Under the pieces are notes generated by a model, which worked only from the letters and a program-made list of their open reading frames with translations, was not told the origin of the DNA and ran no database searches. This document shows, piece after piece, positions 5,154 to 14,419 of a stretch of DNA of 64,000 nucleotides (within the stretch, counting starts at the first letter, position 1; the number at the start of each line of letters is the position of its first letter). A program made the translations under genes and the position numbers. Where the stretch lies: positions 1 through 64,000 of the forward strand of contig NZ_APHY01000009.1 in assembly GCF_000417505.1 (NCBI RefSeq). The letters run 5' to 3'. Origin of the DNA: Megasphaera sp. NM10. GTDB lineage: Bacteria > Bacillota > Negativicutes > Veillonellales > Megasphaeraceae.

Positions 5154-6461
5154 TTATTTGTCCTGTAAAATCGGCATGATTTTGGTGGCATGGGGCATGA
5201 TGTTGATGGCGTAGTCCTTGTCTTTGCCCTGTTCTTTCAGTTTCTGCTGTGCCAGGTCCCATGCTTCCTGGACGGTTTCGACCGGAATCTGGCCAGTGCG
5301 GCGGATGTCGTTGAAGTTACGCGGCAGTGTGACCAGGATGACCGTGTCCTTATGAGTCAGGCAGAAGAGGTTGAAGGCGACGAAGAAGGGGATAGTGAAG
5401 TGTGCCCGCAGGGCTTTTTCCATGTCTTCCATCGTGTCGTATTTGAAGCTGTCCATGTAGATGGCCGGTTCTTTGATGTCCCGGGCTTCCATGATGGCGA
5501 TGATGATGCCGCCGTCTTTGACAGCCATTTCAGCCGGATCGTAGCATTTGCAGCCCTGGTAGAGGCTGACGTCGCTGGGATAACCGCCGGCGCAGGCGAT
5601 GACGACGTCCGATTTTTCTTTCATCGGGACGCGCTGGATGTCGAGGACGGCTTCCGTGCCGGCCCGCCATGCTTCGTACCAGTCGCCGCCGACCATGCGG
5701 CAAATTTCACCGTCGCCGTTGATGACGGAATGGACGAGGAAGCACGGATTGATCTTGCTGCAGGCTTCGACCATGTCATCGTTGAGCGGGTTGCCGTCGA
5801 TCTTGAGGGCCCGCGTCTTGGGATTGATGCCGTGGCCGAATTCGTCAGCTAAAGCGTGGCAATGGTTGCGCTGGATCGTTTCAAAACCGGAGACGCCCGG
5901 CAGGATGAGCTTGCGGCCGCCGCCGTAACCGGCAAAGAGATGGGTCGTAATGCCGTCGACGATGATAACTTTGTCGGCGTCGACGACGTGTTTATTGAGT
6001 TTCAATGGTGTGCCGAGCTTGGTCGTACCGAAGTCGACGAGAGTCGGATCCATGCAGTCGTGCTGATAGGTCTTGATGCGGCGGACGACTTCTTCGCCGC
6101 AGACGAGGACGTCTTCTTCCGGCGTCTGGGCGCGGTGCGAGCCCTGGGCAAAGACGATGTAGATGTCGTCATCGGGGATGCCGGCCAGGTTCAGTTCGTC
6201 GATGATATAGATAAGGAATTGATTGGAATGGTTCCACGTGCGGGTGACGTCGGCGACGACGAGGCAGACCTTATCGCCTTTCTGGACTTTTTCCTGCAAC
6301 GGGGCGCTGCCGATAGGATGACGCATGCAGTCGATCGTCGCCTGTTTGACGTCGACGGCAGGGACGTGTTTCCCTTCCATGACCCCGACAATGTGTTCTT
6401 CCGGGAGCTTGACAGTCTGCGTAGTTTCACCAATATTAAAAGTAAATTCCTTTAATGCCAT
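5154..6461 (-). CDS. larA: LarA-family nickel-pincer lactate racemase
   Basis: Interconverts D- and L-lactate (or a related 2-hydroxyacid) using the nickel-pincer nucleotide cofactor. It has 435 residues. Key positions match the numbering known for Lactiplantibacillus LarA: Arg74 in DVTRTW, His109 in GSHRAQT, His174, cofactor-binding Lys184 in GGGRKLILPG, and His200. In a Megasphaera-like lactate user this would supply the D-lactate needed by the acrylate pathway (inference). The LarA family is broad, so another substrate is possible. The cofactor genes larB/C/E are not in the window. It follows amrS in the same direction but has its own promoter. Confidence 0.85.
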   Translation of the reverse strand: MALKEFTFNIGETTQTVKLPEEHIVGVMEGKHVPAVDVKQATIDCMRHPIGSAPLQEKVQKGDKVCLVVADVTRTWNHSNQFLIYIIDELNLAGIPDDDIYIVFAQGSHRAQTPEEDVLVCGEEVVRRIKTYQHDCMDPTLVDFGTTKLGTPLKLNKHVVDADKVIIVDGITTHLFAGYGGGRKLILPGVSGFETIQRNHCHALADEFGHGINPKTRALKIDGNPLNDDMVEACSKINPCFLVHSVINGDGEICRMVGGDWYEAWRAGTEAVLDIQRVPMKEKSDVVIACAGGYPSDVSLYQGCKCYDPAEMAVKDGGIIIAIMEARDIKEPAIYMDSFKYDTMEDMEKALRAHFTIPFFVAFNLFCLTHKDTVILVTLPRNFNDIRRTGQIPVETVQEAWDLAQQKLKEQGKDKDYAINIMPHATKIMPILQDK

Positions 6462-11138: not shown

Positions 11139-11215
11139 GGCCCCGTGGTGTAGCGGTTTAACATGTCGCCCTGTCACGGCGAAGATCGTCAGTTCAAATC
11201 TGATCGGGGTCGCCA
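11139..11215 (+). tRNA. tRNA-Asp (GTC), copy 1
   Basis: 77 bases including encoded CCA. Acceptor GGCCCCG pairs with CGGGGTC, the anticodon loop CTGTCAC gives GTC, and the T loop is TTCAAAT. Identical to the second tRNA-Asp at 11437. Confidence 0.96.
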
Positions 11216-11223
11216 CTTTTTTT

Positions 11224-11299
11224 GCTCAGGTAGCTCAGTCGGTAGAGCAGGGGACTGAAAATCCCCGTGTCGGCGGTTCAATTCCGTCCCTGAGCACCA
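11224..11299 (+). tRNA. tRNA-Phe (GAA)
   Basis: 76 bases with encoded CCA. Acceptor GCTCAGG / CCTGAGC, discriminator A, anticodon loop CTGAAAA (GAA). Its anticodon and discriminator would match the proposed UUC specifier and UGGU T-box of the leader at 46552. Confidence 0.96.
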
Positions 11300-11317
11300 A
11301 CATCAATTACCTATCAT

Positions 11318-11403
11318 GCGGTTGTGGCGGAATGGCAGACGCGCTACTTTGAGGGGGTAGTGAGCGAAAGCTCATGGGGGTTCAAGTCCCCCCAACCGCA
11401 CCA
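11318..11403 (+). tRNA. tRNA-Leu (GAG), copy 1
   Basis: 86 bases with encoded CCA and a long variable arm, as expected for a class II tRNA. Acceptor GCGGTTG / CAACCGC; anticodon loop TTGAGGG (GAG). Variable-arm stem GAGC / GCTC. Confidence 0.95.
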
Positions 11404-11436
11404 TAGCTTCTCACAAGAGGAGCGCTGAATAGAAAC

Positions 11437-11513
11437 GGCCCCGTGGTGTAGCGGTTTAACATGTCGCCCTGTCACGGCGAAGATCGTCAGTTCAAATCTG
11501 ATCGGGGTCGCCA
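11437..11513 (+). tRNA. tRNA-Asp (GTC), copy 2
   Basis: Exact repeat of the tRNA at 11139 including CCA. It is part of a local duplication of the Asp and Leu genes around the single Phe gene. Confidence 0.96.
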
Positions 11514-11538
11514 TATTCTTTTTTTAACAATTTTATAT

Positions 11539-11624
11539 GCGGTTGTGGCGGAATGGCAGACGCGCTACTTTGAGGGGGTAGTGAACGAAAGTTCATGGGG
11601 GTTCAAGTCCCCCCAACCGCACCA
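11539..11624 (+). tRNA. tRNA-Leu (GAG), copy 2
   Basis: Same as the tRNA at 11318 except for a compensatory pair in the variable arm: GAAC / GTTC replaces GAGC / GCTC, so the stem is kept. Confidence 0.95.
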
Positions 11625-11627
11625 TGT

Positions 11628-11800
11628 AAAAAGGGCTTGTCGTATGACGACAAGCCCTTTTAAGTGATTAGTGGCTAGTTGTTAGTGGTTAGCGGATGGC
11701 TTTAAATTTAAAGCTTTTCTCTGCAAACTACAAACTCCGAACTATAAAGAGATAGGGACCACGCATGATAGCAACAGCTTTTGTGCGACAGTCCCTTTTT
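11628..11800 (+). repeat. Composite repeat, copy C, with tRNA-cluster terminator
   Basis: Starts with the hairpin AAAAGGGCTTGTCG / CGACAAGCCCTTTT (11628-11662), 4 bases after the last tRNA, which would end the tRNA transcript. It continues with the GTTAGCGGATGG spacer, GCTTTAAATTTAAAGC, TACAAACTCC, AGAGATAGGGAC and GCATGATAGC. It ends in a second weak hairpin (AGGGAC / GTCCCT) that includes TGTGCGACA and a T-run. Confidence 0.8.
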
Positions 11801-11823
11801 TAGCAGTTCGTGTTTCGTAGGGG

Positions 11824-11865
11824 CCACGAGCCACGAACCACGAGCCACGAGCCACGAACCACGAG
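11824..11865 (+). repeat. Heptanucleotide tandem repeat (CCACGAR)6
   Basis: Six uninterrupted 7-bp units, CCACGAG or CCACGAA, directly upstream of the methyltransferase-CsoR gene. A three-unit version with the same sequence occurs at 16380-16400. Confidence 0.85.
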
Positions 11866-11901
11866 CTACTGCTTACTATAAAATCAAAAAGGGGAATCCC
11901 T

Positions 11902-12819
11902 ATGGATAAGGAACATATATTTTTTGAAAATTATGCCAGGAACTGGGACCGCGACCGCAAGGCCGACGCCAAAATCTTGTCGTCTTTCATGGAGCTGGCA
12001 GGGATACGGCCCGGTTCGGTCATACTCGATGCCGGCTGCGGGACAGGCGTGCTCCTGCCGTATTTGTCGGCGGCTGCCGGTGATGATGGGACCGTCGAGG
12101 GCTTCGATTATTCCCAGCAGATGATTGATGTGGCCAAAGAGAAATTTTCTTACCTGGCCAATGTCACTTTTACGACAGGCGATGTCCTGAAATACCATTT
12201 CCCGGAAAAACATTATGATGTCGTCTGCTGCCTTAATTTTTATCCCCATATCGCCAGTCACAGCCGCGACGTCATCCGTCGCCTCTATAAGGCCATGGTG
12301 CCGGATGGGACGCTGCTCATCATGCACGATATGCCCCGCAAGGCCGTCAACGCCATCCACGGCGGCCAGCCTGTGCTGCCGCCGGTCGATGTCCTGGAAG
12401 AGAAATTGATCAGCGCCGGGTTTTCCGTCGTCATCGCCATGGATACGGACCGGTTCTATCTCATCAAAGTCGTCAAGGAGGCTGACGAAGCCGATTTCGT
12501 CTACGACGACGAGGAACAGCCGGCCGGCGTGGCGTCCCATCCCCTCCATCACGGCCATCACCATACGGAAACGAAGCGTGTCCTCAACCGCCTGTCGCGC
12601 ATTACGGGCCACGTCGAAGCCATCAAGCGCATGATCGAAGACGGCCGCGACTGCAGCGACGTCCTGGTCCAGCTGGCCGCCGTCCATTCGGCCGTCGCCG
12701 GTGTGAGCCGGGTCATCCTCAAGGACCATATCGACCACTGCATCATCGATGCCATCCGTGAACACGACGCAGATGCCGTAGAAAATCTCAAGAAAGCTAT
12801 TAATACCTTTGTCAAGTAA
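11902..12819 (+). CDS. SAM methyltransferase fused to a CsoR/RcnR-type metal-sensing domain
   Basis: 305 residues with two recognisable parts. Residues 1 to about 190 are a class I methyltransferase: motif I is ILDAGCGTGVLLPYL (residues 41-55), the ribose-binding acid is in VEGFDYS, and TLLIMHDMP follows. Residues about 222-305 resemble a whole CsoR/RcnR (DUF156) repressor domain: LNRLSRITGHVEAIKRMIE, then Cys251, His276 and Cys280. Their spacing (25 and 4) equals that of the Cys36-His61-Cys65 copper site of CsoR. A histidine-rich linker (six His between 213 and 221) joins them. It may be a metal-responsive methyltransferase or a DNA-binding regulator; the substrate is unknown. Shine-Dalgarno AAAGGGG. 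A macro-domain gene follows 46 bases later. Confidence 0.85.
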   Translation: MDKEHIFFENYARNWDRDRKADAKILSSFMELAGIRPGSVILDAGCGTGVLLPYLSAAAGDDGTVEGFDYSQQMIDVAKEKFSYLANVTFTTGDVLKYHFPEKHYDVVCCLNFYPHIASHSRDVIRRLYKAMVPDGTLLIMHDMPRKAVNAIHGGQPVLPPVDVLEEKLISAGFSVVIAMDTDRFYLIKVVKEADEADFVYDDEEQPAGVASHPLHHGHHHTETKRVLNRLSRITGHVEAIKRMIEDGRDCSDVLVQLAAVHSAVAGVSRVILKDHIDHCIIDAIREHDADAVENLKKAINTFVK

Positions 12820-12865: not shown

Positions 12866-13612
12866 ATGCAGTTTCGTGTAGTATTAGGTGATTTATCGGA
12901 GTGGAAGGCCGACGGGATCGTATATTCTGCCAGCTCGACCCTCTTGCCAACGAATAGCGTCAGCAGTAAGATTCATCAGAAAGGCGGCTTGTCTTTTTCC
13001 GCCTCGTGCCGTACGATCGGCATGTGCCACGTCGGCAGTGCTGTCATGACCAAGGGTTATAAATTGAAGGCGCCTTTCATCATCCACGCTGTCGGGCCGT
13101 ACTGGGTAGGCGGCAAGCGCGGTGAAGAAGGGGAATTGTTGTCGGCCTATAAGAAGGCCATCCATCTGGCCGATGAAAAGCATTTGAAGCACGTCGCTTT
13201 TGCTTCGCTGAGTACGGAAGAAAAACGCTACCCCCTGCAGCGCGCTGCCGCTGCCGTCGTCCCCTTGCTCCTGACCGACGGAACCGGCTTCGACCGCATC
13301 GACATGGTCTGCACGAGCCCGGAAGAACAGGAAGCCTATACGAAAGCGGCTGTCTTCTTCTGGCTCCGCCATCTCGGAGACGCTGCCGGCAATGAACAGG
13401 CGGCCATGATGGAAGAAGCCGGCGCTGCCCTGGCCCTGCTGCAGAGCCGCGATGATGCACCGGACCCGATTGCCTTGTCGGAAGAGGTCAAGAAAATCGA
13501 AGCCATCGTCCATCCTTTCTTGAAGTTGAGGAAACGCAGCCTCGTAGACATCGAACAGGCTGCATCGCAGATCATGGCCTTGTATCCGGCCAGCAGTGCG
13601 GAAGGAGTGTAA
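12866..13612 (+). CDS. Divergent macro-domain protein
   Basis: 248 residues. The first about 165 resemble a macro (ADP-ribose-binding) domain: VVLGDLSEWKADGIVYSASS corresponds to the GDIT...DAIVNAAN region, and FIIHAVGPYW is the family's typical central strand. The NAAN loop is changed to SASS, so ADP-ribose hydrolysis may be weakened or altered. The C-terminal about 80 residues are mostly helical and unassigned. The start is ATG 12866 behind GGAAAGGG; an upstream frame from 12809 would overlap the previous gene. Four bases separate it from the CpXC gene, which implies co-transcription. Confidence 0.75.
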   Translation: MQFRVVLGDLSEWKADGIVYSASSTLLPTNSVSSKIHQKGGLSFSASCRTIGMCHVGSAVMTKGYKLKAPFIIHAVGPYWVGGKRGEEGELLSAYKKAIHLADEKHLKHVAFASLSTEEKRYPLQRAAAAVVPLLLTDGTGFDRIDMVCTSPEEQEAYTKAAVFFWLRHLGDAAGNEQAAMMEEAGAALALLQSRDDAPDPIALSEEVKKIEAIVHPFLKLRKRSLVDIEQAASQIMALYPASSAEGV

Positions 13613-13615
13613 CCC

Positions 13616-14419
13616 ATGGCAAAAAGAAACGGAACCCATGATCTGGACGTCACCGTCCAGTGCCCGGCCTGTCATGAATACGGCGTCTTCCATACGTGGG
13701 ATGTCATCGACACGGCTGATGCGAAATTGAGCGAACGCGTTCATTTCGACGAAAATCTATTTTTCTACACGTGCCCTCATTGCCACGCCAAGATCCACAT
13801 GGAAAGCAAGTGCCTCTACATCGACCGGGACAAGAAGCTCCTGGTCTGGCACATCCCGGATCCGAAAGAACGGGTCACGTCGAAGGAAGTCCAGGATGCC
13901 CTGGGTTCGCCGTCCTTCACGACCTATACCTGCCGGGCTGCCCTGACCTGGGGCGAATGGCGGGAAAAGATCATCGAACTGGAAGGCTCTTATGATGACC
14001 GCCTCTATGAAATTATCAAATACGGCGCTTATCAGCTCCTGAGCCAGGAAGACAAGGAACGCCTGCCCCTGGAAGCCTATCACATCGACTATGCCGACGA
14101 TAGCCACGATCCGGACAAGCTGGCCCTGGTCTTCATGCAGGAAGATGCCAAGGGTATGGCCTATGTCTATCCCATTACAGAACATTTGAAAGAAGTGACC
14201 AAGGATATCTTCCTGCCCATCATCGAACAGATCGCCGATGCCAACCGCAAGGCCCAGTTCGACCGTTTCGGCTATTCCTGGGCCCGCCAGTTCACGACGT
14301 ACATCATCAAGGCCGCCGAAGAAGACAAGAACCGCGAAACCTATGGCAACCTCATCGGTTTCTGGGTCAAGACCATTGGCGACGAAATCTTCCGGGCCGA
14401 AGTGAAGCCGGAAAAATAA
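13616..14419 (+). CDS. CpXC domain protein
   Basis: 267 residues. The N-terminal about 70 residues carry two cysteine pairs, VQCPACHE and YTCPHCHAK, matching the zinc-ribbon-like CpXC domain, followed by a mixed helical part with no recognised domain. The family's function is unknown. It sits immediately downstream of the macro-domain gene, with the same cytosolic character and no signal peptide, and likely shares its transcript. A REP-like palindrome and a terminator follow. Confidence 0.75.
   Translation: MAKRNGTHDLDVTVQCPACHEYGVFHTWDVIDTADAKLSERVHFDENLFFYTCPHCHAKIHMESKCLYIDRDKKLLVWHIPDPKERVTSKEVQDALGSPSFTTYTCRAALTWGEWREKIIELEGSYDDRLYEIIKYGAYQLLSQEDKERLPLEAYHIDYADDSHDPDKLALVFMQEDAKGMAYVYPITEHLKEVTKDIFLPIIEQIADANRKAQFDRFGYSWARQFTTYIIKAAEEDKNRETYGNLIGFWVKTIGDEIFRAEVKPEK

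Follow-up and report, generated by a model that had tools for sequence, protein, structure and literature searches.

We found at positions 11902-12819 of the window (the whole 64,000-nucleotide stretch of Megasphaera sp. NM10 that was analyzed) a gene whose product joins a SAM-dependent methyltransferase, through a histidine-rich linker, to an InrS-like regulator of the CsoR/RcnR family. The gene, its parts and its neighbors are as follows:

11139-11624, +: tRNA cluster (Asp, Phe, Leu, Asp, Leu), located 5′ of the fusion gene and conserved in relatives
11902-12819, +: fusion gene, methyltransferase, linker and regulator (305 aa)
11902-12489, +: class I SAM-dependent methyltransferase domain, residues 1-196 (from profile, model and dN/dS)
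12034-12048, +: SAM-binding motif I GCGTG, residues 45-49
12490-12564, +: disordered His-rich linker, residues 197-221 (from pLDDT, alignments and dN/dS)
12565-12816, +: CsoR/RcnR domain (PF02583), helices at residues 224-246, 251-286 and 290-304
12652-12741, +: metal-site codons for Cys251 (X, 12652-12654), His276 (Y, 12727-12729) and Cys280 (Z, 12739-12741)
12866-13612, +: Macro-domain protein (PF01661, 1.2e-27), syntenic in Megasphaera
13616-14419, +: CpXC protein (PF14353, 8.3e-32), syntenic in Megasphaera

Within the tRNA cluster, tRNA-Asp(gtc) and tRNA-Leu(gag) are each present twice, and some relatives have one copy of each. Before the fusion gene, at positions 11800-11875, CCACGAGC/CCACGAAC-like units are repeated in a short tandem array.

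Architecture of the fusion protein

CsoR/RcnR regulators have been described as small stand-alone repressors. A preliminary description of this locus had proposed that one of them is here fused to a methyltransferase and had named two ways in which the proposal could fall, a domain search that gives no CsoR/RcnR match for residues 222-305 alone and a frameshift or assembly join. In profile searches, that segment alone is a strong match to PF02583 (DUF156; 2.9e-29, 101.7 bits, against a curated cut-off of 22.8 bits), as is the full protein (1.2e-27, 96.5 bits), which also matches Methyltransf_25 over residues 41-136 (5.1e-20, 72.4 bits; curated cut-off 27 bits). The open reading frame, the GCGTG motif and the Cys251-His276-Cys280 triad, with its spacings of 25 and 4 residues, are all as first described. 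The AlphaFold model places a Rossmann-type methyltransferase first and a three-helix region (224-304) at the C-terminus, with pLDDT below 50 across linker residues 197-221, and the Foldseek matches of the methyltransferase half are SAM methyltransferases (e.g., 3dh0). Residues D43, G45, G47, T48 and G49 are invariant across fused and unfused methyltransferase homologs, and the fusion shares the motifs P115-H116 and H142-D143 with its unfused relatives.

In the regulator half, C251, H276 and C280 are invariant among the fusions and align in register with C53, H78 and C82 of InrS. R230 and R233 of helix 1, likewise invariant, fall where InrS also has Arg, and we take them to be the counterparts of the DNA-contact residues Arg14 and Lys17 of RcnR. 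Judged from the sequence, both the methyltransferase motifs and the X-Y-Z metal site are intact. The residue preceding Cys251 is D250, so that there is no Tyr at the CsoR 'A' position. The InrS second-shell residues Glu98/Glu95 are not evident in the alignment, which has N295 and A292 at the corresponding places and E294 beside a gap. The cluster of six His in nine residues noticed earlier is real (213-221, HPLHHGHHH); it was not made for the fusion, being the N-terminal His tail already found in stand-alone relatives. Within it, H219 aligns with His21 of InrS and H221 is nearly invariant in the fusions (100% in alignment A4, 90% in alignment A1). We also considered an internal start that would yield a free CsoR, which appears unlikely: residues 181-243 contain no Met, and a possible GTG at V210 is not conserved.

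Conservation and distribution

The full-length fusion is present in 11 of 15 Megasphaera genomes. The ten further copies, which are 50-86% identical to the one in the window, are intact and stop-free; the fusion is therefore genuine, and a frameshift or assembly artifact is ruled out. It is also found in four Negativicutes outside Megasphaera, three of one family (G110, G066 and G068) and one of another (G284), and an even sample of 398 non-Megasphaera Bacillota genomes yielded no further fusions. A plasmid search with the fusion as query returned no match spanning 80% of the query. The fused methyltransferases form a single clade in the tree (support 100/98), while the tree of the 84-residue CsoR domain neither resolves nor rejects a single origin (p-AU 0.389). 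Both domains are under purifying selection, dN/dS being about 0.1 for the methyltransferase and between 0.01 and 0.2 for the sensor; the linker evolves fastest and accounts for most of the variation in protein length (300-348 aa).

The two genes on the 3′ side had been put forward as possible partners of the fusion. Their domain identities hold (PF01661 and PF14353) and both follow the fusion in 10 of the 11 Megasphaera genomes (the exception, G007, has just CpXC), but they are absent at the fused loci of the four genomes from other families, and the partners with broad support are instead metal importers. A second CpXC paralog, together with a CGGC-domain gene, lies near cbiM/nikMQO in the window's genome (L248 7083-7760, contig C71) and also at L249, L230 and L231; CpXC proteins are thus found near both metal loci.

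Importers and unfused relatives

Importers of the NikA or NikM type occur in G000 (the window's genome), G001, G002, G004, G006, G007, G009, G010, G013 and G014, all of which carry the fusion, and an eleventh fusion genome (G011) has a weaker Opp/Nik-like importer candidate with a one-mismatch site (for the sites, see below). All four Megasphaera genomes without the fusion are also without either importer, G003 having only a 36% CbiM. In five genomes (G004, G110, G066, G284 and G068), the fusion gene is next to a Nik-type ABC operon (nikBCADE) or is transcribed divergently from it, and the intergenic regions at these loci contain G-tract palindromes. The best NCBIfam matches of the Nik-type proteins in G004 are nickel transporter models, below their strict curated cut-offs; the ECF importer that we label nikM is CbiM (cobalt) by NCBIfam. 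About 5.4 kb from the fusion, on the reverse strand of the window (5154-6461), there is a LarA-family racemase of the LarAH10 group (NF052525, 612.8 bits, above cut-off), presumed to be a nickel-pincer enzyme. A second methyltransferase family (E-YWDxRSxxFSxxR) recurs in nik loci (L116 5906-6646, L226 2898-3764 and L345 9641-10387), and its genes have a G-tract site of their own in several genomes.

The two halves are encoded separately elsewhere. In a genome of the sister genus (G027), the methyltransferase gene is flanked by a TonB-dependent receptor on one side and exbB/exbD/tonB-like genes on the other; the sensor gene there adjoins one for a nickel-dependent lactate racemase (LarA). In two genomes of another family (G054 and G060) the unfused sensor is the last gene of a Nik-type ABC operon. 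Across Negativicutes and Clostridia, the unfused methyltransferase is often 3′ of an ECF S-component gene (PF12822), and often accompanies TonB receptor, FmdE or Nik-type ABC genes (most neighbors were read by eye). These proteins belong in the tree to the same family as the fused half, but are of about 200 aa and are without the sensor. Stand-alone His-tailed CsoR-like proteins of Clostridia and Negativicutes (e.g., PDB 6AHX), 52-70% identical to the fusion over the domain, share its His tail and G-tract site type, and their genes adjoin nik or cbiM/nikM importers in several genomes; unlike the fusion, they stand alone, and several of their genes have a symmetric autoregulatory site. Acetobacterium paludosum (L071) has within 12 kb, as separate genes, cbiM/nikM, Q and O, an ECF S-component, nikBCADE, a csoR-type sensor, a methyltransferase of the fused family and a second methyltransferase. 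Because of such unfused clusters, we regard the fusion as the joining of two genes that neighbor each other elsewhere.

A probable nickel/cobalt-type sensor

The best solved relatives of the sensor half are 6AHX and InrS (5FMN), ahead of CsoR, and in the tree it groups with InrS-like, His-tailed sensors that include both. InrS has Cys-His-Cys ligands like those of CsoR, yet senses Ni(II) and enhances the nik operon; RcnR responds to both Ni and Co, and the characterized RcnR/InrS members release DNA when metal binds (PMC7055735). The fusion and InrS of Synechocystis resemble each other in their ligands, their His-rich N-terminal tail, the missing Tyr at the 'A' position, the lack of NikR in the genome and the likely control of a nickel importer operon. 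They differ in that InrS, with about 107 aa, stands alone and represses the exporter nrsD as well, whereas the fusion carries a 200-aa methyltransferase ahead of its sensor and no exporter was found among its predicted targets. NikR, with which the fusion would share the role of nickel-dependent control of importer genes, has a different fold; its NikR_C domain is absent from all 15 Megasphaera genomes (control genomes were positive) and from the fusion protein itself. Cobalamin and NiCo riboswitches were likewise not found at the eight importer loci searched, and control of the importers by NikR or by a riboswitch of these kinds was rejected.

The fusion is most likely an InrS-like Ni(II) (or Co) sensor and not a copper CsoR. 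The preliminary description had likened the metal site to the copper site of CsoR; the Cys-His-Cys site is indeed intact, but the copper reading does not survive the comparison with InrS, which uses the same ligands. Copper CsoR (M. tuberculosis 2HH7, and the Megasphaera copy by copA) shares the fold and the spacing of the site, the one point in favor of a copper-sensing CsoR fused to a methyltransferase. It falls, however, in another clade, has another operator type, a copper export context and a Tyr at the 'A' position. A CsoR of this copper clade is also present in all fusion genomes but one; in the window's genome it is the single other PF02583 protein and adjoins copA. The copper-type csoR genes carry their own TATACCCC-type sites, and no copper target genes of the fusion were found, its predicted targets being of the nickel/cobalt kind; we thus consider copper sensing by the fusion very improbable. 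Cobalt in place of nickel as the cognate metal has a distinctly better, if still minor, chance, since NCBIfam names the ECF importer CbiM and the Nik-type matches are below curated cut-offs, and since RcnR senses both metals (PMC7055735). What speaks for nickel is that the best matches are nonetheless of the Nik type, that LarA lies beside the unfused sensor and that these loci have no cobalamin riboswitch. A candidate that bears on cobalt versus nickel is a gene resembling, by eye, a CbiK-type chelatase, which precedes a MATE transporter gene with a directional site of the kind described below (L345 2177-4546 and L356 6048-8392).

Predicted operators and promoter geometry

The G-tract pseudopalindromic operator typical of CsoR/RcnR is present at these loci in the form of predicted sites. 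A directional version, TATCCCC-N5-GGGCTTA, lies before importers of the nikBCADE and cbiM/nikMQO types in fusion-bearing genomes, and all nine matches to TATCCCC-N5-GGGSWTA in the family precede such importers or linked methyltransferase genes. The window's genome has before cbiM/nikMQO an 18-nt variant, TATCCCCCCTATGGCTTA, that is one base short (contig C71, 2414-2431) and keeps the spacing of 20 to the -10; its close relative G002 likewise has a one-base-shorter site. In the window, the region just 5′ of the fusion gene yielded no G-tract site. An initial pattern, TATSCCCC-N4-GGGGATA with two mismatches allowed, gave counts close to background in many genomes, and the directional N5 form took its place.

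Of 380 Negativicutes genomes, 96 contain TATCCCC-N5-GGGSWTA; the reversed control has about nine matches. The targets of the pattern in the Selenomonad-type genomes examined are nikBCDEA, nikA, nikDE, cbiM/nikMQO and nik-linked methyltransferase genes, plus a few unrelated ones, and stand-alone csoR genes are also among the targets of the G-tract site. In G284, the site directly precedes an operon of an ECF S-component, a TonB receptor, a methyltransferase and an exbB-like gene (L165 4390-7671), the methyltransferase being an unfused member of the fused family; this suggests, at the level of predicted sites, that ECF S-component/TonB receptor/methyltransferase operons belong to the same regulon. 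Sensors that stand alone but share the clade of the fusion's CsoR domain are encoded in several Selenomonad-type genomes. Of 56 stand-alone csoR genes from this clade, 17 are immediately preceded by a symmetric TATCCCC-N5-GGGGATA-like site, which did not occur at any of 518,390 background positions.

The two kinds of site are placed differently. In most of 35 distinct directional sites, which are partly related by descent so that their count is not one of independent events, the -10 hexamer starts 20 bp downstream of the site (mean match 4.46/6, against 2.04 in the background). The site consequently spans about -51 to -33, with its center at about -42, overlapping a poor -35, and its last bases replace what would be a good -35. 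At the stand-alone sensor genes, the symmetric site comes 5 bp after the -10, and most have a TTGAC-type -35. From this geometry and from homology, we infer a class II activator position for the importer sites and a repressor position for the symmetric csoR sites.

Proposed function and alternatives

Based on the computed architecture, conservation, regulon sites, site geometry and importer association, we propose that the fusion probably acts in metal uptake, and most probably in that of nickel, as both regulator and enzyme, combining an InrS-like sensor that activates importers with an uptake-linked methyltransferase. The sensor half would be a CsoR/RcnR subunit, expected to form a tetramer and to use Cys251, His276, Cys280 and a tail His (H219 or H221) as ligands for Ni(II) and perhaps Co(II). 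Metal-free protein would sit on the TATCCCC-N5-GGGCTTA sites overlapping the weak -35 of the nikBCADE-type and cbiM/nikMQO-type importer promoters, and of linked methyltransferase genes, and activate them. Upon binding metal, it would leave the DNA and uptake would drop; allostery of the InrS type, in which metal frees the DNA, at activator-placed sites would mean that import is shut down by metal. The N-terminal half is likely an active SAM methyltransferase. Its unfused relatives belong to operons for the uptake of metals or cofactors, with ECF S-component, TonB receptor, FmdE and Nik-type ABC genes, and it may methylate a small molecule of the uptake pathway; that the methyl acceptor is a chelator or carrier is our guess from gene context.

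Activation of the importers by the fusion is itself a reading of site geometry and homology, and the fusion could instead repress by occluding the -35, although one would expect a better -35 in that case. In one such scheme, the fusion would repress the importers directly with metal as co-repressor, a NikR-like logic on a CsoR fold with an allosteric sign inverted relative to InrS. The presence of the sites at importer promoters and the want of evident InrS second-shell residues are compatible with this scheme, which has some chance of being right but a clearly lower one than activation, as metal makes the characterized RcnR/InrS members dissociate from DNA (PMC7055735) and the constant position of the sites, about -42 and on top of a very poor -35, suits an activator. 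As for the methyltransferase half, it could be non-catalytic, a SAM/SAH sensor or scaffold tuning the regulator, in line with a trigger-enzyme arrangement, which the fusion would suit, and with the fact that no substrate is known; the retention of motif I, P115-H116 and H142-D143 as in unfused relatives, at a dN/dS of about 0.1, makes this unlikely. We are equally doubtful that metal gates methylation or that methylation of the sensor, by itself or by a partner, sets its activity. The covalent fusion has been kept in at least 15 genomes, which favors such a link, but the linker, widely variable in length and predicted to be disordered in proteins of 300-348 aa, implies no fixed interface between the halves and suggests independent domains. 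Coupling in the sense that the metal state switches methylation of a metal carrier, or that DNA binding depends on the SAM state of the enzyme, is only slightly less improbable. Were the halves so coupled, one protein would form a feedback loop linking chelator chemistry to the control of uptake genes.

Implications

Our literature search found no paper on an enzyme-fused CsoR/RcnR regulator and nothing usable on a methyltransferase of nickel uptake operons. Nickel is important in gut Megasphaera for enzymes such as the LarA-family racemases. The likely control sites can be read from genomes, which makes the regulatory idea directly testable. The site map predicts a Negativicutes-wide regulon with both activator- and repressor-type placement, and the fusion, together with the unfused Acetobacterium cluster, points to uncharacterized methyltransferases in nickel or cobalt acquisition.
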